Shown: positions 94 through 11,843 of the stretch, piece after piece
How the letters are laid out: every line of letters begins with the position of its first letter
Numbering within the stretch: the first letter of the stretch is position 1
NCBI GenBank assembly: GCA_016928395.1
Contig: JAFGKV010000162.1
Location: 1-11,982, forward strand
DNA length: 11,982 bases
From: Candidatus Fermentibacterota bacterium
GTDB taxonomy: Bacteria; JAFGKV01
Reading direction: 5' to 3'
Position numbers and translations under genes: made by a program
Notes under the pieces: generated by a model
Databases searched by the model: none
What the model saw: the letters and a program-made list of their open reading frames with translations, nothing else
What the model was told of the DNA's origin: nothing

Positions 94-2799
94 GTGATTC
101 CGTTCGAGACCTTTCTGGCCCGGGCCGACCAGGAGGCTGGTCGATACGGCGATGATCCCTGGGTGTTTCTCCGAGAGCTGGTGCAGAACAGCCGCGATGC
201 CCACGCCCGGCATATCGAGTTCACGGTGACGAGCACCGATGCCGGTGTAACTCTTGTGTGCGAGGATGACGGGGTGGGCATGAACGGGGATATTGCCGAA
301 CGCTACCTGCTGCGCCTCTATGCCTCCACCAAAGGCGAGAACGGCAGTGTCGGATTCTTCGGCGTCGGGTTTTGGTCGATCCTCCGGTTCAACCCCCGCA
401 CAGTCACCATCATGTCGCGCAGTACGGAAGGTGAGATTTCCTTCGAACTCGACGTGTCGAGCGGAACCATGATGCCTTTAGAATCAGCACTGAAGGGGCT
501 CGGCACTCGGGTGGTCATCACCAGAGAGCCGGGTGCCGGGCCAGGTGCCGCTGATGAGTTTGAGGCTCTCGTGCGGGAGAGACTCCTGTGGTATGCGGCC
601 CACGTTCGACCTTTCCCCGGAGAAGACCCCATCGAGCTGACGGTGAATGGCGAGCGCCTGGATCGGGAGTTTCCTCTTCCGCCCCATGGCGGCCGGCGCA
701 TCCGGGGGAAAGGGTTCTCCGCGGTGGTTGGGTTCGGTTCCCAGCCCTCTGTGAAGATCTACACCTCAGGAATCCTCGTGCGTGATCTGGTGAGTCTCGA
801 CGAGGTGATACCGTCCCACGGGGCCCGGGCGCCGCGGGGCGGGTGGGGGCTCTACCCGGTGGTCAAGATCAATGCCGACGGGCTCCGGTTGCTCATGGAC
901 CGTCAGGCGGTGTACGAGGACGAAGTCCTCAAGAGGGCTGTTCGGCGTTGCGAGACAGAGCTTCTGAGCATCCATCGGCGCGTGCTCCATGGGATGTTGC
1001 CCATGGATCTTCGCAACCTGTGGTGGAGGATGCGCGACCGCGTTCGACTCCTGCATGTTGTTACCGCAGGGTTCTTCTTGGTAACCCTGGTCGCAGCCGG
1101 GACCGGACTCGGATCGCTCGCGTTCCGGGGTATACCCGCCATGGGCAGGCCCAGCCCCGCGTCGGGCCGAGCTGCCCCGTCCGCAGCCGGCCCGAAGACC
1201 ATCGACTGCATAGAGATGGGTCTACGGAACGGGGCTGCGCCGGGCTCTGAGGATCAAATCTTTCCGCTGGCCTTCCTCTTCGACGGCCCTCCCACGGTGA
1301 TGTTCATCGCGAGGTTTCTCACGGGCTACGACCAGGTGCTCGGCTTCCAGGTCGAGCCACTTCTCGTTCAGGAGCCCTATCCGAGTTTTCCCGAGGGTGA
1401 TGGGGAAACGATGGCCGCGCGCATGTATGTAGCGGGAGGGCGCAACCTTGTGCTGCCTGTGCCTCCGGGGCATGGGGTGGTGGCCCGTTCAGTTCTCCAC
1501 GAGGGCTTATCTCTTGAGGTGTGGCGAGACCGGCTTGGCCAGCCGGTGGTCGTGCCGCCTGGGCCTGGATGGGTTTCCTACTCGATGGTCCGGCGGCACA
1601 ATCCAGTCTCCTGCTCGAACCCCTCCCCGACAGTGCTGCCGTGGTCTCCCCGATTCCGCCGTGCGCTGGCTTCGGTAAGCGGCAGCGATATCGCTGCCAC
1701 GGTCGAGAGTTTGGCCGCACCGGTGCGGGAGTCCTTTGTCTATGCTCGGGCCGATGCGACCGATGGCGACCGGAGCCCTTGGCTGGAGCGTGCTCTCTCT
1801 CGCGGCACGGGTGACTGCGATGTCATCAACGGCGTCATGGCCCTGTTGCTCCGCTCAGCCGGTATTGAGGCGCATCTGGCGGTGGGCATCATAGGGGAAC
1901 ACGGGCGGGCCGTGTCGCCGCTGCACGCCGTGACGGCATACTGCGATAGTGGGTGGCGATTCCTCGACCTGAGCACCGCGGTACCCAGCGAACCCCTCTC
2001 CTCCCCGGACGCACCCGCTGCGGATCACCCCCACGTTTCTCCCACGTCACCCGGTGACGGCACTGGGGGCCGCGCACTGCGGGGAATACTCATCGCAACC
2101 ATCACGAGTGCCATGGCCGTCCTCGGTATCAGCGTTCTAGAACTGCGAACCAGGCGGGCAAAGCCCGATCCGAGCCATGTCCGGTACCTGTTCGGCCATC
2201 TCTATGACGGGCGCGATCGTGGCACCGATCTGGCATTCCGGCCGGTCGTTCCCCTGATCGGGGGGCGGAGAGTCAGCCTCTATGAGCTGGAGCGCATGGC
2301 CTCTCGCGGCCCAGTGCTGGGAGCAAAGCCCGGGGCGCCTCTTCTCTCACTCATTCGCGCGAGCGCCGTGATTGACGGATCGGCGGATGTTGTCGGCCAG
2401 GTTGAGCCTTTCCTCCCACCGATCACATGGCTGGATGATCTGGACATCACGCGTCACGAACTACCCCCCTTTCTCTCCCGCATCGAGCACGCCATTGCCG
2501 CGCTGGACCCGGCTTTCAGGATTTATCTTGCCTCCGGTGCAGCGATTCGCATCGTGGAAGTCCCGCTGCGGGATCACCGTGGGGATCGTCACGTATTCCT
2601 GGGCCGGGAGCATCCCCTATATGCCACCATGGAGGCCTCGGCAGAGAGGGGTGTGGTGGGGCTCATGGAAGCAGCGGCCCGGCTTATGAGGGCAGTACCG
2701 ACCTACGTCCACTGCGCCGATCGGTTCCTGGAGGTCGTGGCCAAGGCCACACATCCAGGTCTCAGTCCAGGGGCTACGGGCAAGGAAACGCATGGCTGA
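94..2799 (+). CDS. Membrane-anchored HSP90/GHKL-type ATPase with transglutaminase-like domain
   Basis: 901 residues, GTG start; the same frame is closed by a TAG at 85-87, so this is the first possible start, and it keeps the whole ATPase fold. Residues 1-300 resemble the N-terminal and middle domains of HtpG/HSP90: E28 and N32 in the ExxxN motif, D35, the DxGxG motif at D58-G62, the glycine-rich lid GFFGVG at 87-92, and GT at 137-138. A hydrophobic helix lies at about 319-345 and a second at about 661-684. The segment between them contains a transglutaminase-like core: GDCD with Cys575, then LHAV with His611 and an Asp at 625, in the usual Cys-His-Asp order and spacing. The tail from 685 onward (about 215 residues) is not recognised. 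With the ATPase in the cytoplasm, the transglutaminase-like domain would face the periplasm or exterior and the tail would return to the cytoplasm. Known: transglutaminase-like folds are peptidases or crosslinkers. Inferred: ATP-driven changes are relayed across the membrane. The substrate is unknown. The next gene overlaps it by 8 nt. Confidence 0.85.
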   Translation: MIPFETFLARADQEAGRYGDDPWVFLRELVQNSRDAHARHIEFTVTSTDAGVTLVCEDDGVGMNGDIAERYLLRLYASTKGENGSVGFFGVGFWSILRFNPRTVTIMSRSTEGEISFELDVSSGTMMPLESALKGLGTRVVITREPGAGPGAADEFEALVRERLLWYAAHVRPFPGEDPIELTVNGERLDREFPLPPHGGRRIRGKGFSAVVGFGSQPSVKIYTSGILVRDLVSLDEVIPSHGARAPRGGWGLYPVVKINADGLRLLMDRQAVYEDEVLKRAVRRCETELLSIHRRVLHGMLPMDLRNLWWRMRDRVRLLHVVTAGFFLVTLVAAGTGLGSLAFRGIPAMGRPSPASGRAAPSAAGPKTIDCIEMGLRNGAAPGSEDQIFPLAFLFDGPPTVMFIARFLTGYDQVLGFQVEPLLVQEPYPSFPEGDGETMAARMYVAGGRNLVLPVPPGHGVVARSVLHEGLSLEVWRDRLGQPVVVPPGPGWVSYSMVRRHNPVSCSNPSPTVLPWSPRFRRALASVSGSDIAATVESLAAPVRESFVYARADATDGDRSPWLERALSRGTGDCDVINGVMALLLRSAGIEAHLAVGIIGEHGRAVSPLHAVTAYCDSGWRFLDLSTAVPSEPLSSPDAPAADHPHVSPTSPGDGTGGRALRGILIATITSAMAVLGISVLELRTRRAKPDPSHVRYLFGHLYDGRDRGTDLAFRPVVPLIGGRRVSLYELERMASRGPVLGAKPGAPLLSLIRASAVIDGSADVVGQVEPFLPPITWLDDLDITRHELPPFLSRIEHAIAALDPAFRIYLASGAAIRIVEVPLRDHRGDRHVFLGREHPLYATMEASAERGVVGLMEAAARLMRAVPTYVHCADRFLEVVAKATHPGLSPGATGKETHG

Positions 2800-3955
2800 C
2801 CGGTTCGTCCTGAGCATCGACTTGGAGGCTGAGCTGCAGAAGATCGCGCAGCGCCAGCATCTGAACAATGTCCACTATCTCGTTCAACTCACGCGGCACG
2901 CCCTGAGGCATGACCCGGGCGTCATTCACATCGAAAGCACCCGACGACATCTCACAATCACTCAGGATGGCACTCCTTTCTACGATTCGGAACTGGCCTT
3001 GCTCCACGTGATCACGGGCGGCGACGATTTTCTGCGGAGGCAGGAGGCGTTGGGCATTCTTGAGCAGGAGCACGGCATTGCCATACTGTCCGCGATCCTC
3101 TCGTTTCCCAAGGTCGTGGTGGCGTCGGGCGGATGGATCATGGTCGCCTCTGGAGGTCGCTTCCGGGTGGAGGCGACCTCGAACAAGGCGCCCGGCTATC
3201 GCATCGTGATCCACCGCTGCGCACCCAGACGACGCGTAGAACGAAAGGAACTCGATTTTTTCTGCGCCGGATGCGCCGTGCCGATTCACTACAATGGCGG
3301 CCAGATAAACCGTCCCATGGCTCTGCGAGGGCAGGTACTCGCCGCGGCGCTTTGCCGTGAGGATGGCAACGGGGAACTCGGCATCCCATTCAAGGCTGAA
3401 CTGAGCGCCATGTCATACTTCAAGAGGGGAGTTCGGTTCGGGTTCAGGCGGTTTCTCGATCCGCACGGTATCACACTGGAAGGCTACTGGGATTCATCCC
3501 ACCGTGCATTCGAGCCACGCTACGAGCAGAGCATAGGAGCCGGCGAGGAGTTCCTCCATGAGGCCAAAGAAGGGCTCTGCCGCGAGGCTGCAAGCCAGTT
3601 TGCGGCTCTTGACGTCAAGGCGAAAGAACGCGTCCGAAGGGCGGGCCTTCGGCTGCTGTCTCATCGGCCGGAGTGGCGGGACGCCCCGCTGTTCGATTCT
3701 GTGTGGCGGGCGTTTTCCTTTTCTATGGCTCATCTCGAGAACCTGGAAAGACAGTTTGGCGTCATACCCTGTTCGTTGCGGTCCAGCAGACGGCTCCCTT
3801 CCTGGGTGCCCAGGCTTTCATCGGAGCAGATCCACGTGCTCCGAGACATGGGACACCCTGTGGCGCTGCTCTCAGTCACACCACCCCGACTGCGATGGCG
3901 CGGTCTTGCGGCGAGGCTTCGCCGGCTGGTTACGGCTACAGACGAGAGGTCATGA
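2792..3955 (+). CDS. Degenerate HSP90/GHKL-like protein (probable pseudo-ATPase)
   Basis: 387 residues. The ATG at 2792 has an AAGGA Shine-Dalgarno at 2782-2786 and lies inside the end of the preceding gene, indicating coupled translation. The N-terminal part can be laid on the ATPase domain of that gene almost without gaps: YLVQLTRHA (29-37) against ELVQNSRDA, and TQDG (57-60) against EDDG. The residues that hydrolyse or bind ATP in the partner are all changed (E to Y29, N to L33, D to H36, D to Q58, and the second glycine of DxGxG to P62), and the glycine-rich lid is not preserved. Residues near 195-290 resemble the HSP90 middle-domain region. No membrane segment or signal peptide is seen. 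A CAGC pair lies at 158-161. Inference: a non-catalytic partner, perhaps forming a heterodimer with the active ATPase, as GHKL proteins often act as dimers. The homology is read by eye and is moderately secure. The product may be soluble or held at the membrane by its partner. Confidence 0.75.
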   Translation: MADRFVLSIDLEAELQKIAQRQHLNNVHYLVQLTRHALRHDPGVIHIESTRRHLTITQDGTPFYDSELALLHVITGGDDFLRRQEALGILEQEHGIAILSAILSFPKVVVASGGWIMVASGGRFRVEATSNKAPGYRIVIHRCAPRRRVERKELDFFCAGCAVPIHYNGGQINRPMALRGQVLAAALCREDGNGELGIPFKAELSAMSYFKRGVRFGFRRFLDPHGITLEGYWDSSHRAFEPRYEQSIGAGEEFLHEAKEGLCREAASQFAALDVKAKERVRRAGLRLLSHRPEWRDAPLFDSVWRAFSFSMAHLENLERQFGVIPCSLRSSRRLPSWVPRLSSEQIHVLRDMGHPVALLSVTPPRLRWRGLAARLRRLVTATDERS

Positions 3956-6130
3956 GGAAGCAGATGACGCCGAAGGGGTCCTCGGCGCCCTGGGGCTTTT
4001 TCGCTGCCGTTTGAGGAGCCGGGCAAAGGAGAGGGGGACATTGAAGAACAGATCGAACATGCAGTGCTCCAACAGCCCGCCGTGCTCGCCGAACACGGGG
4101 ACCACACGGACGACACGCCTGGTCCACCTCCCGGCCAGGAATCTGGCCAGCGCGGGGTTGTGCGTCACCATCTGGAATGGAAACGCCAGGTACCCCAAGA
4201 CATGGATGAACGAGATTGGGGCCGCGATGTAGTAGTTCTTGATGTCGCGTTCCTTGATCATCAGGTACAGCACGAATACGCCTCGGGTGATGGAACCGGG
4301 TGAAATGGGCAGGAGCTGGATGGTGGCGGCAGCGGCTGTGCCCAGCCCGAGGCTCTCCGCCCAGCTCAAACCCCGGTACAGCACACAGTACAGCGTCACC
4401 GCCACGCCCACGACAATCATTACCACCTGGGTGATGGGTACCGTGCACACATGGACTGCGAGGCATCGCAGGTATTTTTGGATGTAGGGGTCCTTGATCT
4501 GGGCGATGACCCGCTCCGCCTCGGTGTCGGTCAGCATGCCTTCCTCACGGCCGGCCGTGACTTCATCGAGAAGCTGTTGCTCGCGGTAGGCGGGATCCCT
4601 CAGGAAGCGTAGGGCACGGCCGAACTTGGCTTTCAGGGCCGTCCAGGCCCAGGAAGGTTCGGTGAACGATCGATGCCACAGGGGGGGCTGCCATGCCAGC
4701 AGCATTCGTTCCAGGGCGAAGTGAAGGGGACGCTCCAGCAGCCGCTGTGCCCGGGATACGGACACCCTGCCACCTCTGACCCATCCGATGAGAGACGCCG
4801 CACGATCTCCCCGGAATGCCCTACCCAGATAGGCCGTGCTGGTGAGGCATCGCTTCAGGTGAATCCGGGTCGGCTCGTGGCCCCAGAACCGGATGATACG
4901 GGATCCCAGCAGGGGAATCCACGAGGCGGCATACATGGCGGCATAGAGACCCGCTCGCCGACGCAAGGCGGCGGCATGGGTCTCATCGATGCGGCGCAGA
5001 TGCAGCCATGCAAGGATGGTAGCCTCCCGGATGGATGCGCGGAGGGCTTTGTCGGTGAGGAGGTGGTGCCTATGATGGGTCACATCCGGCAGCGATGCCC
5101 TGTACCGTGGTTCAATGGCGGCCAATTCCTCTACGGCATCCTTCATCCCGGACAGGGCAGTAGGGTCTCTGGCGCTGAAGGCCCGCAGCCGGGTGAGATC
5201 GCCCCGGTCGAACTGCACCAGCCTTCCCCGAGCCAACCCCCGCCCGATGAGCTTGAAGTCGGCTGGGCTCATGGGAAGAAGAGGCATGAGCACCAAGCCC
5301 GATGCGAAATCGATGGCGGTGAGGCCTCCGGGGCCGTCGTCCGCATCGATGCGTTTGAGCGCGTTCGGTTGGCTCTTGCAGGTCCACCATTCGTATTGCC
5401 GGGCCAGTTCACCCGCGCCCATTTCATGGAGTAAGCCCACCAGCCGGCGCATGAACAGGCGCTTGCCCACATACTCCGGGCATTGATGATCCGCAGGCAC
5501 ATCGCCCTTGAACTTCCAGCGTCGAAAGAGGCGATCGTCCACCTCGAACTTCCACATCCTGCCGTCCACCCATTCATTCAGAACACCAAATGCACCGATG
5601 CGGCGGTCGAACAGCGTGGCGTGCGTGTCGCACACGGCGCGCTCATCGCCGAAGTGTGTTTGTGCCGCGCGACGGATTAGCTTGTGCCATACTGCCATGG
5701 TTCGTACTGCCGCTTCATTCACCTGCGGGGCGAAATGCGCCTGATAGCCAAGGGCATAGAGTAGATTGCGGAAGCGCGCCGCGCTGGGTCTCGGGGGCAG
5801 GAGGAGCTTCAGGGCATAATGGCTACCCACTGCCAGGTCGGGAACCTCGCCGATGGAGGCCTCGTGCAGGCATTCAAGACGGGTCAGACACACACGGTAC
5901 ACTTGTCCCGCGAAGCCTCCGCCCACAAAACGGTCCACACTGAGCGTGGCCTGGGCATTGTAGCGGGGATGAATCCCTCGCAGATCGTAGGTGAGGAGGT
6001 CGCCCGGATCATACCGGCAGGGCTGGTAGGGCACAGCCAGGCCGCAGTGACCGTATGCCTGCAGGAGTTCGTCCCGCAGCTCGAGAAAGGAGAGTGTGGA
6101 TACGGGTTCTCCGTCGGCGGGATCGGGCAT
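3950..6130 (-). CDS. Divergent protein-kinase-like protein with C-terminal membrane segments
   Basis: 726 residues from the ATG at 6130. This start is chosen over an in-frame ATG at 6403 because it has an AGGAG Shine-Dalgarno (6138-6142) at 7-nt spacing, and the extra upstream residues look non-protein-like. The N-terminal half resembles a kinase N-lobe: a glycine loop GGGFAGQVY (70-78), an AxK-type lysine in YALK (K108), and a hinge-like VLNEWVDGR (about 183-191). The C-lobe is divergent: the expected HRDxKxxN loop is represented by a conserved-looking stretch ending in SQPN (253-256) with no aspartate at the catalytic position, while an IDF (D274) may stand for DFG. Residues 556-584, about 596-625 and 632-655 are hydrophobic and predicted to cross the membrane. 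The basic tail (about 705-720) is rich in Arg, Lys, Pro and Ser. It may be a pseudokinase or an atypical kinase with an alternative catalytic site. Its 3' end overlaps the convergent gene by 6 bp. Confidence 0.7.
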   Translation of the reverse strand: MPDPADGEPVSTLSFLELRDELLQAYGHCGLAVPYQPCRYDPGDLLTYDLRGIHPRYNAQATLSVDRFVGGGFAGQVYRVCLTRLECLHEASIGEVPDLAVGSHYALKLLLPPRPSAARFRNLLYALGYQAHFAPQVNEAAVRTMAVWHKLIRRAAQTHFGDERAVCDTHATLFDRRIGAFGVLNEWVDGRMWKFEVDDRLFRRWKFKGDVPADHQCPEYVGKRLFMRRLVGLLHEMGAGELARQYEWWTCKSQPNALKRIDADDGPGGLTAIDFASGLVLMPLLPMSPADFKLIGRGLARGRLVQFDRGDLTRLRAFSARDPTALSGMKDAVEELAAIEPRYRASLPDVTHHRHHLLTDKALRASIREATILAWLHLRRIDETHAAALRRRAGLYAAMYAASWIPLLGSRIIRFWGHEPTRIHLKRCLTSTAYLGRAFRGDRAASLIGWVRGGRVSVSRAQRLLERPLHFALERMLLAWQPPLWHRSFTEPSWAWTALKAKFGRALRFLRDPAYREQQLLDEVTAGREEGMLTDTEAERVIAQIKDPYIQKYLRCLAVHVCTVPITQVVMIVVGVAVTLYCVLYRGLSWAESLGLGTAAAATIQLLPISPGSITRGVFVLYLMIKERDIKNYYIAAPISFIHVLGYLAFPFQMVTHNPALARFLAGRWTRRVVRVVPVFGEHGGLLEHCMFDLFFNVPLSFARLLKRQRKSPRAPRTPSASSASS

Positions 6131-6137
6131 CCGGATT

Positions 6138-6142
6138 CTCCT
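6138..6142 (-). promoter_or_regulatory. Shine-Dalgarno deciding the start of the kinase-like gene
   Basis: On the minus strand this reads AGGAG, 7 nt before the ATG at 6130. It is the reason for preferring this start over the in-frame ATG 273 nt upstream. Confidence 0.8.
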
Positions 6143-6254
6143 GGCGGTCCTGGGTCTGCGGGCGCTCCTGCCGGCGAAGGCGCGGGGGGAGAGGCCGTTC
6201 TCTCGGGGGTGTAGATGAGATGCGAGGAACCATGCGCGCGGGGTCTGCCCGGTC

Positions 6255-6276
6255 AAGCGAAACTGCGCGTTCGCTT
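6255..6276. repeat. Perfect 7-bp inverted repeat with 8-nt loop
   Basis: AAGCGAA at 6255-6261 is matched by TTCGCTT at 6270-6276 with ACTGCGCG between. No T-run follows on either strand, so this is not a standard intrinsic terminator. It abuts the direct repeat starting at 6277 and may be part of a regulatory region between the two divergent genes. Confidence 0.5.
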
Positions 6277-6305
6277 CGTTCGACGTGCACGGTGCACCGT
6301 TCGAC
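6277..6305. promoter_or_regulatory. Candidate operator: 12-bp palindrome flanked by direct repeats
   Basis: ACGGTGCACCGT at 6289-6300 is a perfect 12-bp palindrome. The 8-mer CGTTCGAC occurs at 6277-6284 and again at 6298-6305, 21 bp apart (two helical turns). This is the layout expected for binding of a dimeric regulator, but no regulator gene is in the window and a role is only inferred. Confidence 0.35.
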
Positions 6306-6465
6306 TTGCCTTGCTCACACCTCTCAAAGGGGCCACCGAGCGCGAGGGTCTTCAGGCCCTTTGGAGTGAGAGAATGGAATCCTAAAGCATCAGGACAGCA
6401 CACTAAGGGGGATGGGAATGACAGGACGAGTGGACGAAGGGAGGGAGGACAACGATCGGGGAGGC

Positions 6466-6483: not shown

Positions 6484-6810
6484 AGTCATGATCTGGCGAC
6501 TCGCCTGCGAAACCGATTGACCCGAGATCTCAGGATTCCCTCCTCTCATACACGTTCTCAGTCATGGGCTGCCGGCTCTTGCCGCATCCATCACTCAAAT
6601 CATCCAATACGCCATGCTGGATGCGTCTGATTGCCTGATCATGACCGCACGCTCGTACCTGTTCCCAGGAGATGCGGCCTTGACCGGCGCGGCGAAGGCA
6701 CGAAACTGTAAGCCTTGCTGCAGTGTTGAAGGAGAGAACACAGCCTTCGGCCGATCGCGGTTGTGTGCCGATGGGGATACTCCCGTCGGGCCGCACGGCA
6801 GGCTTCGAGC

Positions 6811-6822
6811 GGGAGAGGGAGC
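6811..6822 (+). promoter_or_regulatory. Purine-rich Shine-Dalgarno deciding the start of the pseudo-cyclase gene
   Basis: GGGAGAGGGAGC ends 7 nt before the ATG at 6830. The in-frame ATG at 6614 has no comparable site, and the additional residues it would add do not resemble the cyclase fold. Confidence 0.75.
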
Positions 6823-6829
6823 GCAACCA

Positions 6830-7987
6830 ATGTCCAAGGGATCCTCGGCACCGGATCGGCGGAAGACGATTGCGGTGCTGTCCACCGGCATCGTGGAGTA
6901 TGACCGTCGCATCCTGGAGGATGAAGGGCGCGCCCAGTCACTGGCCCGGAGGGACCTGACGCTTATCGGAGCCCTCTGCGAGGGTTTTCGGGGCGACGTC
7001 GTGGGGCGTACAGATAGTGGGGTTGTGGCTACTTTCGTCAGTGCCGCGGATGCGGTGGAATGTGCCCGGGAGGTGCAGAGGCAACTTGCCGAATCCGCCC
7101 GGGTGCTACCGGAACGAGAGGTGCTTTGCCACCGCATCGGCCTTCATCTGGGAGACGCCCGTGGGAGTGACGGTCAGCTCTTGGGAGACAGTGCACAGGT
7201 CGCCACTCTGGTTCAGGGGCACGCACCTCCTGGTGGCATCTGTCTCTCGGAGACGCTTTTCGATGCGGTAGGTCATCGGCTCGTTCTCCGCACTGTGGAC
7301 CTTGGCCTTCACCAGCTCTCCCCGGGGGGCGGGGGCGTGCATGTGTATCAGATGGTGGTATCCGGCCTGCTCGTCTCCGGCCAGGGTGAGTCGCGCGCAG
7401 GACAGTCCTCGAGCGCAGTGCAGAAGGTATTTGCGGTGCTGGGGATTGCGGGGATCGTTTTGGTGGCCGGTGGCGCCTTTCTGGCTGTGAAGGCCCTCCG
7501 ATGTGCATCTACCGAGGGCGATATCCCCTTGATGGAAATGGTTGAAATGGAGCCCGAGCCGGAGCCCTCCGCCGCCCACGAACCCGTATCGCCTCCTCAG
7601 CAGACTCCGCCCCGCGTCACGCCCGCGCCTCTTCCACGAAGTACTCCACCCAGCAGTTCGCAGCCAGCCTCGCCTCTGGCTTCTTCTCGACGTTCGGGGA
7701 CCGCCCAGCCTTTTGAGAGGTCTCCTCGGCACGACGGCACACCGCAGGCATCAGTGCCGGCTCTGTCGGATGTCTCGGGCCTGACCGTCGACGAGATTGA
7801 GCAGTTTCGGGAGCTTGACTTCAACCGTGACGGCATGCTTAGCCGACAGGAGATCCCCTTCGAACTCCGCAGCAAGATCATGTGGGCAGACGCAGATGGC
7901 GACGGGGTGGTGACTCTCGAGGAACTGAAGGCTTCGCGGGGCCGGCGTCTCACCCAAAGGAGATCGTCGGGCGTCACTCCGGAGTAG
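6830..7987 (+). CDS. Pseudo-nucleotidyl cyclase with one membrane helix and paired EF-hands
   Basis: 385 residues from the ATG at 6830. Residues 12-175 match the fold of bacterial class III adenylate/guanylate cyclases (the type with an N-terminal LEDE-like segment, a middle AxxAxECAxExQ helix, an RIGxHLGD strand and PPGGICLS at 133-140). The catalytic residues are gone: by alignment the first metal aspartate is Gly20, the second is Ser63 (TDSG in place of TGDG), the transition-state Asn is Gln123 and the Arg is Leu127. Cyclase activity is therefore unlikely, and a ligand-binding or protein-binding role is inferred. A hydrophobic helix spans 199-221, followed by an acidic then Pro/Ser-rich linker. 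Two canonical EF-hand loops lie at 330-341 (DFNRDG...E) and 354-365 (DADGDG...E), with all calcium-ligand positions filled. With the cyclase domain inside, the EF-hands would lie outside the membrane, as predicted for the transglutaminase-like domain of the first gene. Transcribed divergently from the kinase-like gene. Confidence 0.8.
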   Translation: MSKGSSAPDRRKTIAVLSTGIVEYDRRILEDEGRAQSLARRDLTLIGALCEGFRGDVVGRTDSGVVATFVSAADAVECAREVQRQLAESARVLPEREVLCHRIGLHLGDARGSDGQLLGDSAQVATLVQGHAPPGGICLSETLFDAVGHRLVLRTVDLGLHQLSPGGGGVHVYQMVVSGLLVSGQGESRAGQSSSAVQKVFAVLGIAGIVLVAGGAFLAVKALRCASTEGDIPLMEMVEMEPEPEPSAAHEPVSPPQQTPPRVTPAPLPRSTPPSSSQPASPLASSRRSGTAQPFERSPRHDGTPQASVPALSDVSGLTVDEIEQFRELDFNRDGMLSRQEIPFELRSKIMWADADGDGVVTLEELKASRGRRLTQRRSSGVTPE

Positions 7988-8333
7988 GTGCTGTCGCGCT
8001 TGGCGGCAGGTTCAGCTCGTTCCCCAAGTAGGGTTCAGGGACCGGCGGAGAGCCGCCCCGCTCTCCCAGGTTCTGTCGGGCCCCGGCACCGACAGGTTGC
8101 CGTAGCACCGGGCGCGACGGATCTTGGCTGCCGCCGCGGAGGGCGAGGTTCTGGCGGTCGAGATCTGAGTACGCCTCGTTCGAGTTGAAGGACGCCTTCG
8201 TAGCCTTTCATTCTTCTCGGGCCGCCTTTCCTGCTGACGCCGCTTCCCCGGGCCGGGGAGTGGCCGAGGTATGCGGTTCGTCGGCCCAGGCGCACACAGG
8301 CTGCGCCTCTTCCCAGCGACGAGAGGACAGGGG
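7988..8333. other. Intergenic region of 346 bp with several GC-rich hairpins
   Basis: No convincing gene on either strand. Visible inverted repeats are GGCGG/CCGCC (8044-8057, AGAG loop), CTGTCGG/CCGACAG (8073-8095, 9-nt loop), GAAGG/CCTTC (8187-8199) and TCCCC/GGGGA (8245-8259). None is followed by a clean U-tract, although the third is followed by a pyrimidine-rich stretch. The region should contain the end of the pseudo-cyclase transcript and the promoter of the next gene. A TTGAAG at 8185-8190 has only a poor -10 partner. Confidence 0.5.
8073..8095. repeat. Perfect 7-bp stem, possible transcript end
   Basis: CTGTCGG (8073-8079) and CCGACAG (8089-8095) pair perfectly around a GC-rich 9-nt loop, 85 bp after the pseudo-cyclase stop. 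It lacks a U-run, so at best it is a non-canonical or Rho-assisted terminator or an RNA-stabilising structure. Confidence 0.3.
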
Positions 8334-11300
8334 ATGAGGATTGTTGCCGACCTGCACGTGCATGGCCGCCACTCCGTGGCCACCAGCCGGGCACTGAGCT
8401 TGGAATCGTTGTACGGGTGGTCGGTGCGCAAGGGCATCGACTTGGTGGGCACCGGTGACATTGTGCATCCTGCCTGGCGAGGTGAGGCACGGGAGCTGCT
8501 CGTTCCCGCGGAAGACGGGTTGTTCCAGCTCGATCCAAGGCGGACCGGGGCGATTGATATCGGAAGGGTTCCCAGGCGGCCTGTCCGTTTCATGCTCGCG
8601 GTGGAGATCAGCACCATCTACTCTGACGGCGGTCGTGTTCGTAAAGTGCATCATCTGGTGCTGCTGCCTTCCTTCGACGCAGCCGATACACTCTCGGATG
8701 CACTCTCGGGCATCGGATCGATCTCATCTGACGGCAGGCCCATTCTCGGGCTGAGTTCCCGGAATCTCCTGGAGACGGTCTTGGAGTGCGACCCCAAGGC
8801 GGTGCTCATTCCGGCCCATATCTGGACGCCGTGGTTCTCGGCTCTGGGATCGAAGAGCGGGTATGACACTATAGACGAGTGCTATGGCGATCTCTCTCCC
8901 CACATCTTCGCCATTGAGACCGGGCTTTCATCCGACCCCGCTATGAACTGGCGGCTGTCCTCATTGGATCGGTTCGCCATCATCTCCAACTCCGATGCCC
9001 ATTCCGCAGAGAAGCTCGGCCGTGAGGCAACGGTGTTCGAGTGCGATTTCTCCTTTGACGGGATCTGCGGCACGATGAGGGGCAAAGGCGGAGCCATAGA
9101 GAGTACCGTTGAGTTCTTCCCGGAGGAGGGCAAGTATCATCTGGATGGGCACCGCGCCTGCAGGGTTCGGCTTGAGCCGAGGGAAACGCGGCGCCATGGA
9201 GGCCGATGCCCGACCTGCGGCAAACCGGTGACAGTGGGGGTAATGCACAGGGTCGAGGAACTGGCAGATCGTGCCGGAGGCTTCCGACATCCAAAGCGTC
9301 CCGGCTTCGTGCGACTGGTGCCTCTGGTGGAGGTGCTGGGACAGGTGCTGGGAGTGGGTCCGTCTACTCGATGCGTGCGCAGGGCCTACGACCATCTGTT
9401 GGGAGCGCTGGGATGTGAATTCTCGATTCTTATGGATGCCTCTCCAGATGATCTAGAGAGGCTTGGAGGAGACCGCTTGGCCGAGGCGGTCGTCAATATC
9501 CGGGCCGGCCGGGTCATCACGGAGGCAGGGTATGACGGCGAGTATGGAACGGTACATGTCTTGGTGCCAGAACCGGAGGCGGTTGATGCTCCAGTCGTTG
9601 CCGCGCAGCTTGACCTGGTCTTGACCGACGCCCCGGCGGTTCGGATGAAGGAGGGGCAACGCAGTATCATCGCGGCGCCAGATCGTTCACTCGCGGTGAT
9701 TGCCGGGCCGGGCAGCGGCAAGACCCATCTCCTGACGCAGCGGATGGCCCAGGCTGTCACCCGGGGTGATGCACCCGTCATCGGCATCACCTTTACCCGG
9801 GCTGCGTCCCGGGAACTGGAAGCGCGGCTTCGATCAACGTCGTCCCATCACGATTCCCTGTGGACCGGGACTCTTCACCAGTTCGCCCACGAGCTGCTCT
9901 GCCGTAGCGGAGAAGAGCCTGATGTGTTGGATGACCGGCAGCGGGCTGCAATGCTGCAGTACGCACTGCACCGGGAAGGGTACACGGTCTCATTCTACCG
10001 CGCCTTGAGGCTGACCCAGCGGGCATCGGCGCTCAGACACGGCACGCAGAGGCCTGAGTCGTCCTCAGTCAGCGATGGAATGCTGATGGAGACGTATCAG
10101 CGGACAAAAGAGAACGCTCGAGCCATGGATTACGATGATCTCATCGACCGGGCTATCGCACGGGCGGCTCAGCCAGGTGTCACCACGGCGGCGCATGTCT
10201 TCGTGGACGAGTTTCAGGATCTTGACGCCGCGCAGTATCGCTTGGTGCAGCGCATGGCGCGCGGGCCCTCCATCATGGTCATCGGAGATCCTTACCAGGC
10301 CATCTATGGTTTTCGCGGAGGAGATCCGCGATTGAGCGAACGATTCATTCGCGAAACTGCCCACACGCGGGTGGAGCACCTCACCTCCAGTTATCGCTGC
10401 GGCGAGACCATCCTCCGGGCCGCAGATGGTGTGGCACGTCGGGATCCAGCCATGACTTCGGCACGGGGGGAACCGGCGATGGTCGAGGTGCTGCGAGCCG
10501 GCTCTCCGGCGAAGGAAGCCCGGATGATCGCGGGGCGCGTGCGGGAAGTCTTGGGAGGGCTCACATCCAGAGACACGCCGAGCGGGCAGACCCCATGGGC
10601 TGCGGGTTTCGGCGACATTGCAGTCTTGGTGCGAACAAGCCATATGATCGGCCTGTTCGTCAAGGCCCTCGCCGAGGTTGGCATACCGTGCCGATCCGCC
10701 CGTGCCACAGCCCTCTCAGAAGATCCGGCTGTGTCCAGAGTTCTTGCCTGGCTGCGTCTTGGTCTCAACCCTGAAAGCCCGGCCGATGTGCTGATCGCCC
10801 GAGCCTGGCGTCCCGGCGATGCCCTACCCGCGGGCCTTGGCCTCTCCGAGCGCAAAGAGGTAGAGGAACTGGCGTTGGTCAGCACCGCGGAGGCTCTGGA
10901 TCGCCTGGCGCTGAGGGGAATCAGCGTGGGCGTGGATGCCGATCGGATGAGGATTCTTCGCCGGCTTGCGGAGGAATGCCCGCGGGTGTCGAGTTTTGTC
11001 ACACGGGTGATGTCGGAGCGGGAGGCGGGGGTCGTGGATGGGAGGGCGGAGGCGGTGCGCGTGATGACCATGCACGCTGCCAAGGGATTGGAGTTCGGTG
11101 CGGTGTTTGTCACCGGGTTTCGGGAGGGCCTGCTTCCCCTATGCGGTTCGGATCCGGAGGAAGAACGGAGGCTCTGCTACGTCGCCATGACCAGGGCCCG
11201 TTCGTATCTGGCTCTGACCTATGCCGGCGAGGTCAGCCAGATATCACGATTTGCAGGCGATATCCCCGCGGAGGCTCTCGCCTCGCCGAGACGACCACGC

Positions 11301-11336
11301 CGCAGTGCTGTTCAGCTCGAGCTGGACCTGTGGTGA
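8334..11336 (+). CDS. Endonuclease Q-like PHP nuclease fused to UvrD/PcrA-type SF1 helicase
   Basis: 1000 residues. The ATG at 8334 follows GAGAGG (8321-8326) and sits just ahead of the first PHP motif; an in-frame ATG at 8271 adds only 21 unrelated residues. Nuclease half: DLHVH (D6, H8, H10), E91 in VEIST, KVHH (H106-H107), PAHIWTP (H162), IETGLSSDP (E195), SNSDAH (219-224) and GREA, the set typical of the COG1379/endonuclease Q group. A Zn-ribbon candidate follows (H273, C276, CPTC at 292-295), then HRVEELADR and a helix-hairpin-helix-like segment to about 393. Helicase half: Walker A AGPGSGKT (457-464), DEFQD (625-629), GDPYQAIYGFRG (651-662), SSYR, MHAAKGLEF (913-921) and YVAMTRAR (949-956), so all SF1A motifs are intact. 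The region that would form subdomain 2B is short. The last residues QLELDL (994-999) match the hexameric beta-clamp motif. Known: archaeal EndoQ nicks 5' of deaminated bases and AP sites. Inferred: coupled nicking and unwinding at damaged DNA. Confidence 0.92.
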   Translation: MRIVADLHVHGRHSVATSRALSLESLYGWSVRKGIDLVGTGDIVHPAWRGEARELLVPAEDGLFQLDPRRTGAIDIGRVPRRPVRFMLAVEISTIYSDGGRVRKVHHLVLLPSFDAADTLSDALSGIGSISSDGRPILGLSSRNLLETVLECDPKAVLIPAHIWTPWFSALGSKSGYDTIDECYGDLSPHIFAIETGLSSDPAMNWRLSSLDRFAIISNSDAHSAEKLGREATVFECDFSFDGICGTMRGKGGAIESTVEFFPEEGKYHLDGHRACRVRLEPRETRRHGGRCPTCGKPVTVGVMHRVEELADRAGGFRHPKRPGFVRLVPLVEVLGQVLGVGPSTRCVRRAYDHLLGALGCEFSILMDASPDDLERLGGDRLAEAVVNIRAGRVITEAGYDGEYGTVHVLVPEPEAVDAPVVAAQLDLVLTDAPAVRMKEGQRSIIAAPDRSLAVIAGPGSGKTHLLTQRMAQAVTRGDAPVIGITFTRAASRELEARLRSTSSHHDSLWTGTLHQFAHELLCRSGEEPDVLDDRQRAAMLQYALHREGYTVSFYRALRLTQRASALRHGTQRPESSSVSDGMLMETYQRTKENARAMDYDDLIDRAIARAAQPGVTTAAHVFVDEFQDLDAAQYRLVQRMARGPSIMVIGDPYQAIYGFRGGDPRLSERFIRETAHTRVEHLTSSYRCGETILRAADGVARRDPAMTSARGEPAMVEVLRAGSPAKEARMIAGRVREVLGGLTSRDTPSGQTPWAAGFGDIAVLVRTSHMIGLFVKALAEVGIPCRSARATALSEDPAVSRVLAWLRLGLNPESPADVLIARAWRPGDALPAGLGLSERKEVEELALVSTAEALDRLALRGISVGVDADRMRILRRLAEECPRVSSFVTRVMSEREAGVVDGRAEAVRVMTMHAAKGLEFGAVFVTGFREGLLPLCGSDPEEERRLCYVAMTRARSYLALTYAGEVSQISRFAGDIPAEALASPRRPRRSAVQLELDLW

Positions 11337-11429: not shown

Positions 11430-11506
11430 GCTGGCGTAGCTCAATCCGGTAGAGCAGCTGACTTGTAATCAGCAGGTTGTAGGTTCAAGTCCTATCGCCA
11501 GCTCCA
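11430..11506 (+). tRNA. tRNA-Thr (TGT)
   Basis: Cloverleaf with acceptor GCTGGCG/CGCCAGC, D-arm GCTC/GAGC, anticodon stem GCTGA/TCAGC and anticodon TGT at 11464-11466, T-arm GTAGG/CCTAT with TTCAAGT loop (a G-T pair at one end), discriminator T and encoded CCA at 11504-11506. First gene of the tRNA-tuf operon. It reads ACA and, with wobble, other Thr codons. Confidence 0.97.
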
Positions 11507-11529
11507 TGGCCGGCTGGGTACTCTCTTGT

Positions 11530-11615
11530 GGGGGGGTTCCCGAGTGGTCAAAGGGGGCAGACTGTAAATCTGTTGGCTGACGCCTTCGAAGGTTCGAATC
11601 CTTCCCCCCCCACCA
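11530..11615 (+). tRNA. tRNA-Tyr (GTA)
   Basis: Class II tRNA with a long variable arm. The acceptor is seven G (11530-11536) paired with seven C (11605-11611), followed by discriminator A and CCA at 11613-11615. Anticodon GTA is at 11564-11566 in loop CTGTAAA, and the T-arm GAAGG/CCTTC encloses TTCGAAT. The seven uninterrupted G-C acceptor pairs are unusual. Confidence 0.97.
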
Positions 11616-11642
11616 CACATTTTTCGCAGACGCCAGCGCGTT

Positions 11643-11720
<78 letters not shown>

Positions 11721-11766
11721 CCCAGGGCGAGCCGAGACGGACGGCGTTTTCATGAGGCCTGTCGAG

Positions 11767-11843
11767 GCCCACGTAGCTCAGCTCGGTAGAGCACGTCCTT
11801 GGTAAGGACGGGGTCACCGGTTCAAGTCCGGTCGTGGGCTCCA
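11767..11843 (+). tRNA. tRNA-Thr (GGT)
   Basis: Acceptor GCCCACG/CGTGGGC, D-arm GCTC/GAGC, anticodon stem CGTCC/GGACG with anticodon GGT at 11801-11803, T-arm ACCGG/CCGGT, discriminator T and encoded CCA at 11841-11843. It reads ACC and ACU. Its 5' end overlaps a small GGCCT/AGGCC hairpin (11756-11769), which may aid or hinder 5' processing. Confidence 0.97.

Follow-up and report, generated by a model that had tools for sequence, protein, structure and literature searches.

A predicted membrane-threaded Hsp90-like ATPase with a transglutaminase-fold insert is encoded together with a motif-degenerate paralogue

The locus and the gene 1 family

The window, by which we mean the whole analyzed stretch of 11,982 nt, is one whole contig (C205) of a 4.8-Mb draft genome, and it contains two overlapping genes near the start of its forward strand. 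Gene 1 (positions 94–2799, + strand) encodes a protein of 901 amino acids, which its open reading frame, Pfam matches and family alignment define as an Hsp90-like ATPase, predicted to be threaded through the membrane, with a transglutaminase-fold (TG) insert. Its start codon is GTG, and because an in-frame TAG is located at positions 85–87, the start cannot be farther upstream. Gene 2 (positions 2792–3955, + strand) encodes a protein of 387 amino acids, an Hsp90-like paralogue without the transmembrane (TM) helices and the TG insert, which is predicted to have no usable ATP site. Two Pfam families matched gene 1 above their curated cut-offs: HATPase_c_3 on residues 25–115 (E 5e-9, 36.6 bits, cut-off 25) and Transglut_core on residues 535–625 (E 1e-8, 35.6 bits, cut-off 23).

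The search of genome contigs detected three relatives of gene 1, one each in bins assigned to "Eisenbacteria" (L009), "Deltaproteobacteria" (L010) and Thermoanaerobaculales (L011). Within the phyla of L010 and L011, profile searches found gene 1 in at least 13 of 195 and at least 17 of 396 genomes; both counts are lower bounds, as the best candidates per genome were scored, and some gene 1 copies are broken at contig ends. The plasmids searched gave no match to gene 1. Altogether, the family comprises about 30 proteins from three bacterial groups. The family alignment showed that C575, H611 and D625 of the TG triad, as well as R270 of the ATPase part, are kept in 29 of 29 members, and that E28, N32, D58, G60, G62, G87, G90 and G92 are kept wherever letters exist (27–28 of the 29 aligned). 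Transglut_core was recognized by Pfam in 28/28 members and HATPase_c_3 in 27/28. The fusion of an Hsp90-type ATPase with a transglutaminase is real, because its motif residues are invariant across about 30 proteins from three bacterial groups. These data agree with the initial annotation, which had located complete GHKL motifs and a Cys575/His611/Asp625 core at exactly these residues, and the fusion that it had suggested looking for in other genomes was found with the same architecture in about 30 of them, in three groups.

As the window is a single contig of a draft genome, it could be argued that an assembly or gene-prediction artefact fused two unrelated genes. This explanation is extremely improbable, and it is refuted by the recurrence of the architecture and the invariant residues in three groups and about 30 genomes, all the proteins of which share one tree. 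Some irregularities of the draft data were observed in individual relatives. In the draft bin of the nearest relative (L009, 2359–5042), gene 1 is split between two frames and lacks about 30 residues, which may be an assembly error. The end of L010 and the start of L093, two different contigs of the same bin, carry gene 1 ends that are 92–93% identical, so that this bin may mix strains.

Similarity of the N-terminal part of gene 1 to Hsp90

Gene 1 was compared with a reference set of 19 true Hsp90s, consisting of E. coli HtpG and proteins matching PF00183. Residues 1–145 (positions 94–528, + strand) are assigned to the GHKL/Hsp90 N-domain, in which E28, N32, D58, G60, G62 and the GxxGxG motif at 87–92 are intact, while residues 146–305 (positions 529–1008, + strand) are assigned by profile alignment to the first half of the Hsp90 middle domain, with the invariant R270 (positions 901–903) placed on R336 of HtpG. 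The profile comparison aligned residues 21–297 of gene 1 to residues 27–363 of HtpG (probability 99.1, E 1.4e-18, 253 columns). Because the E-values from such comparisons refer to a single profile pair, column-shuffled profiles were used as controls, and these scored at most 21, as compared with 144 for the match of the N-part to the Hsp90 profile. Gene 1 residues E28, N32, D58, G87/G90/G92, T138 and R270 corresponded to E34, N38, D80, G121/G124/G126, T174 and R336 of E. coli HtpG, respectively, and the mapping of the N-domain motifs also included G84 of HtpG (E34, N38, D80, G84, G121–G126). In HtpG, E34 is the catalytic base, and R336 is the middle-domain arginine that contacts the gamma-phosphate. 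The N-domain, the first half of the middle domain, the catalytic glutamate and the middle-domain arginine are common to gene 1 and the HtpG/Hsp90 proteins (E. coli HtpG, TRAP1).

The best PDB-chain match of the gene 1 profile was HtpG, and chains of MORC2, sacsin and MutL were matched too. The structure model of gene 1 was of low confidence, and in its residues 1–303 the N-domain of TRAP1 was matched with a Z score of 14.0 and an rmsd of 3.2 over 154 residues. The predicted structures of the two proteins had pLDDT values of 46 and 42, and their input alignments contained 5 and 2 rows. For gene 1, the fold search was informative over residues 1–303 only, where it supports an Hsp90 fold, and alignments reaching residue 889 with an rmsd near 18 were ignored. 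PF00183 (HSP90) did not match gene 1 at E ≤ 1 in hmmscan. Because PF00183 was unmatched and TM helices are present, the protein is named a divergent Hsp90 homologue rather than HtpG.

The matches to MORC2, sacsin and MutL chains, together with the MutL folds that matched the model, could indicate that the protein is not an Hsp90 but a GHKL motor resembling MutL, MORC or sacsin. However, HtpG was the best chain, the Hsp90 profile match extended over 253 columns including the middle-domain arginine, the soluble relatives described below match Hsp90 across 490 columns, and the sacsin NCBIfam score stayed under its cut-off, which together make such a motor very unlikely. The N-domain is also the part that gene 1 has in common with sacsin and the bacterial sacsin-like GHKL proteins. 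Pfam SACS was found at E ≤ 0.01 in 16 of 28 members, and the sacsin-type NCBIfam model NF047352 gave 41.1 bits for gene 1, under its curated cut-off of 50. Unlike sacsin, gene 1 contains the TM–TG insert, and no other sacsin domain was seen in it. A role in anti-phage defence was rejected, as the PADLOC matches covered only the GHKL part of the TmtA and MzaB models.

Predicted TM hairpin and external TG domain

Hydropathy analysis of the 29 members indicated two hydrophobic segments, TM1 at residues 317–335 (positions 1042–1098, + strand) and TM2 at residues 664–682 (positions 2083–2139, + strand), so that the two hydrophobic helices noticed in the window protein are a feature of nearly the whole family. 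The first segment is located about 45–60 residues past R270, and the second about 85–185 residues past C575, in nearly all 29 members; the exceptions were L082, with nothing above the threshold, and L091, with no second segment past the TG core. In most members the net charge was positive before TM1 and after TM2. By the positive-inside rule, this charge pattern makes it a well-supported prediction that residues 1–316 and 683–901 are inside, while the TG core is outside. The predicted extracytoplasmic region, delimited by the hydrophobic segments and the charge pattern, thus corresponds to residues 336–663 (positions 1099–2082, + strand). The initial annotation had proposed an external loop at 345–660, and the charge pattern favors its external location over a cytoplasmic one, while the bounds are corrected to about 336–663.

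The TG core is at residues 535–625 (positions 1696–1968, + strand), as defined by Transglut_core, the triad kept in the family, and a match to a PDB entry. The triad codons are located on the + strand at positions 1816–1818 (C575), 1924–1926 (H611) and 1966–1968 (D625). A transglutaminase fold had been anticipated at 540–630, and the Transglut_core match was significant. NCBIfam searches of the TG region gave nothing useful. The sole PDB match of this region was 6g49, a transglutaminase entry (E 1.2e-5), which we take to be TgpA. The TgpA protein of Pseudomonas aeruginosa is an inner-membrane DUF3488-transglutaminase with a periplasmic TG-superfamily domain and in vitro transglutaminase activity; its chain contains six TM helices along with DUF3488, but lacks a GHKL domain (PMC3507681). 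The location of its TG-superfamily domain at the periplasmic side of an inner-membrane protein resembles the predicted external location in gene 1. On the other hand, TgpA has a multi-TM region before the TG domain, while gene 1 has one TM segment before the TG core, and PF11992 (DUF3488) was absent from the Pfam scan of the window protein and from the families listed for 28 members. The predicted external domain of gene 1 may act as a peptidase, amidase or crosslinker.

The C-terminal part and the insertion site

Residues 683–901 (positions 2140–2796, + strand), which the initial annotation had left undefined from residue 685 on, were assigned by profile alignment to soluble relatives and gene 2 as the second half of the Hsp90 middle domain and the C-terminal domain, and they are predicted to be cytoplasmic. 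Residues 713–880 aligned to soluble Hsp90-like relatives with a probability of 97.2 (E 4e-11, score 86), and the C-part aligned to gene 2 with a probability of 94.1 (E 1.3e-7, score 58), while shuffled profiles scored at most 18 in either comparison. The soluble relatives themselves matched Hsp90 over nearly their whole length (probability 99.2, E 6e-20, 490 columns). When the C-part was compared directly with the 19-member Hsp90 set the match was weak (probability 37), the direct comparison with four HtpG sequences gave no significant match, and the PDB profile search with the C-part found nothing. Hence, the Hsp90 identity of this part is tentatively suggested by the soluble relatives, which serve as a bridge to a weak direct match, and the likeness of gene 1 to HtpG/Hsp90 in the second half and the C-part is seen through them.

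The two Hsp90-like halves are contiguous in the soluble relatives. Between the catalytic arginine and the point where the second half starts there are 443 residues in gene 1, as compared with 71 in the soluble relative L098 and 75 in HtpG, which indicates that about 370 residues, corresponding to TM1–TG–TM2, were inserted. By this alignment, the insertion site of the predicted hairpin with its TG domain is the linker that joins both halves of the Hsp90 middle domain. Thus, the proposal that an ATPase is joined to a transglutaminase across the membrane holds, with the TG domain predicted outside, while the head-to-tail fusion that it implied is replaced by an insertion, as the C-part appears to belong to the same Hsp90 scaffold. 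In the tree of the N-part a single branch (support 100/99) separates the TG-bearing proteins from the soluble relatives and HtpG, which fits a single TG insertion event.

Gene 2 encodes a motif-degenerate partner

The data showed that the unit at this locus is not a single protein, as first described, but two genes. In the window, the ATG of gene 2 overlaps the stop of gene 1 by 8 nt, and a gene 2 homologue follows gene 1 in 31 of the 31 loci where the contig continues, always with a 4- or 8-nt overlap between its start codon and the stop of gene 1; L010 and L011 are outside this count because their contigs end within or at the end of gene 1. In the 396-genome sample the genomes with gene 1 and those with gene 2 were the same 17, and no genome had one gene without the other, when the best candidates per genome were scored. 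Hence, the two genes are an obligate pair.

Gene 2 had no match in Pfam or NCBIfam. The profile comparison showed that it is homologous to the N-part of gene 1 (probability 98.3), and that its longer forms are homologous to gene 1 across the whole C-part (probability 94.1, 214 columns), while nothing in the gene 2 profile matched the TG region. The Mg-binding asparagine is absent from gene 2 in 31/31 loci, the neighboring glutamine is replaced by arginine or lysine in 31/31, the adenine-contacting aspartate is missing from 20/31, and no GxxGxG lid is left. On the basis of these losses, gene 2 is best read as a paralogue with a dead ATPase site. It is a probable clamp partner of gene 1, and we infer that the two proteins form a heteromer.

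Hsp90 is known as a soluble, homodimeric chaperone. The present system is different than HtpG/Hsp90 in having two predicted TM helices and a TG enzyme within the middle domain, in the lack of a PF00183 match to gene 1, and in the obligate second subunit that is predicted to be ATP-dead.

Other paired Hsp90-like genes

Pairs of this kind were also observed among the soluble relatives (L098–L104, L107), which have neither membrane helices nor a TG domain. In seven of these loci (L098, L099, L100, L101, L103, L104 and L107) an intact Hsp90-like gene is directly followed by a motif-degenerate one, as in the window, while L102 is a contig fragment. Since the soluble relatives are paired likewise, the pairing looks older than the TG insertion. 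Another Hsp90-like pair was found in L105 (1059–5001), L106 (1–3756) and L108 (1060–5000). The first gene of this pair contains a TM hairpin after an "LETADGG" segment, at a site other than that of the TG family, and its second gene has the N-box and GxxGxG motifs intact. This hairpin looks like a separate membrane insertion, and by this third group membrane insertion seems to have occurred at least twice. No description of paired soluble Hsp90-like genes was found in the open-access literature searched, the coverage of which was incomplete, and the wider set of such pairs appears to be undescribed.

Possible coupling of the cytoplasmic ATPase to the external enzyme

Hsp90s are ATP-driven clamps, which open and close as dimers. 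Genes 1 and 2 would form a two-subunit, membrane-anchored Hsp90-like machine, in which gene 1 would supply the working ATPase and, on a hairpin of two TM helices, display the TG-fold enzyme at the outer side of the inner membrane, where it would act on envelope material as a peptidase, amidase or crosslinker. Gene 2, with the same cytoplasmic scaffold and no hairpin, would most likely provide the other arm of the clamp. On binding of ATP the clamp would close, R270 acting as the sensor of the gamma-phosphate; the closure would move both TM helices and thereby switch the external enzyme, and hydrolysis would reset the system. We give about an even chance to the general proposal that the ATP cycle of a cytoplasmic Hsp90-like two-subunit machine controls an external cysteine enzyme through the membrane. 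The more specific proposal, that an asymmetric clamp with one live and one dead ATPase subunit mechanically switches the cysteine enzyme on the outer face via the hairpin, and so represents a new class of machine, is plausible at somewhat less than even chance. In both proposals the ATP-driven coupling, the direction of control and the substrate are inferred, and the outward direction is favored. The genes beyond gene 2 vary among loci (LiaF-like, lytic transglycosylase, Zn_peptidase_2, beta-lactamase fold, ribosomal L9), so that no pathway can be read from the context.

Because the hairpin is placed within the Hsp90 middle domain, force could run either way, and the architecture would also allow an inward sensor, in which the TG-like domain outside would bind or process a ligand of the envelope, and the state of this domain would be relayed by the TM helices to the Hsp90-like pair, which would then act on proteins inside the cell. 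The TG triad, kept in all 29 members, is more in keeping with an enzyme than with a domain that only binds, and no effector or response gene conserved beside the pair was found, which makes sensing unlikely.

The Hsp90 homology across the scaffold could alternatively reflect a membrane-anchored chaperone, the Hsp90 part of which would fold or hold clients, while the TG domain would stabilize or trim their exported part, with no tight coupling between the two. Consistent with this explanation, the search for PF00183 in the window genome and two kin (G000, G001, G002) gave no match, and the pair could be their only Hsp90-like protein. However, several other pair-bearing genomes also contain a true HtpG (G003, G004, G570, G214, G232, G281), and the location of the insert within the middle domain, rather than at an end, suggests coupling. 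An uncoupled chaperone is therefore also a rather improbable explanation, and control of the external enzyme from inside remains the favored reading.

The envelope contains no ATP; if the coupling is real, it would be a new way for cytoplasmic ATP to control envelope chemistry, and a natural experiment on force transmission by the Hsp90 clamp. The Hsp90 scaffold occurs here as an obligate pair with a paralogue that is predicted to be ATPase-dead, and in one branch it is predicted to cross the membrane on either side of an external enzyme. As the pair is obligate, the question of an asymmetric clamp can be addressed with two purified proteins. The initial annotation knew of no characterized protein joining the two activities, and our search of the open-access literature, within its incomplete coverage, returned only other systems: neither the fusion of a GHKL or Hsp90 domain with a transglutaminase, nor a bacterial Hsp90 threaded through the membrane, nor Hsp90-like proteins in obligate pairs were described there.

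Other genes in the window and the flanks

Directly upstream of gene 1, an extra gene of 510–640 amino acids was observed in some relatives of L010, namely in L066 (5000–6544), L069 (3472–5010) and L070 (6534–8459). This extra gene has N-terminal TM segments, and it overlaps gene 1 or is a few bases away from it. The copies in L066, L069 and L070 had no match in Pfam, and by eye they resemble an M48-kind metalloprotease without HExxH.

Downstream of the pair, the window contains a gene convergent with gene 2 (positions 3950–6403, − strand; 817 amino acids), which is kept at the same place in L009. Its protein had no match in Pfam, and inspection by eye showed kinase-like motifs (VGGGFAGQVY, YALKLL, IDFASG) and TM segments. 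The next gene (positions 6614–7987, + strand; 457 amino acids) shows weak similarity of the cyclase type, together with a TM segment, a stretch rich in proline and a pair of EF-hands, and it is followed by a gene encoding a PHP-type/TIGR00375 N-part fused to a UvrD-type helicase (positions 8271–11336, + strand; 1021 amino acids). Four consecutive tRNA genes, Thr-TGT, Tyr-GTA, Gly-TCC and Thr-GGT, are located at positions 11430–11843 of the + strand.
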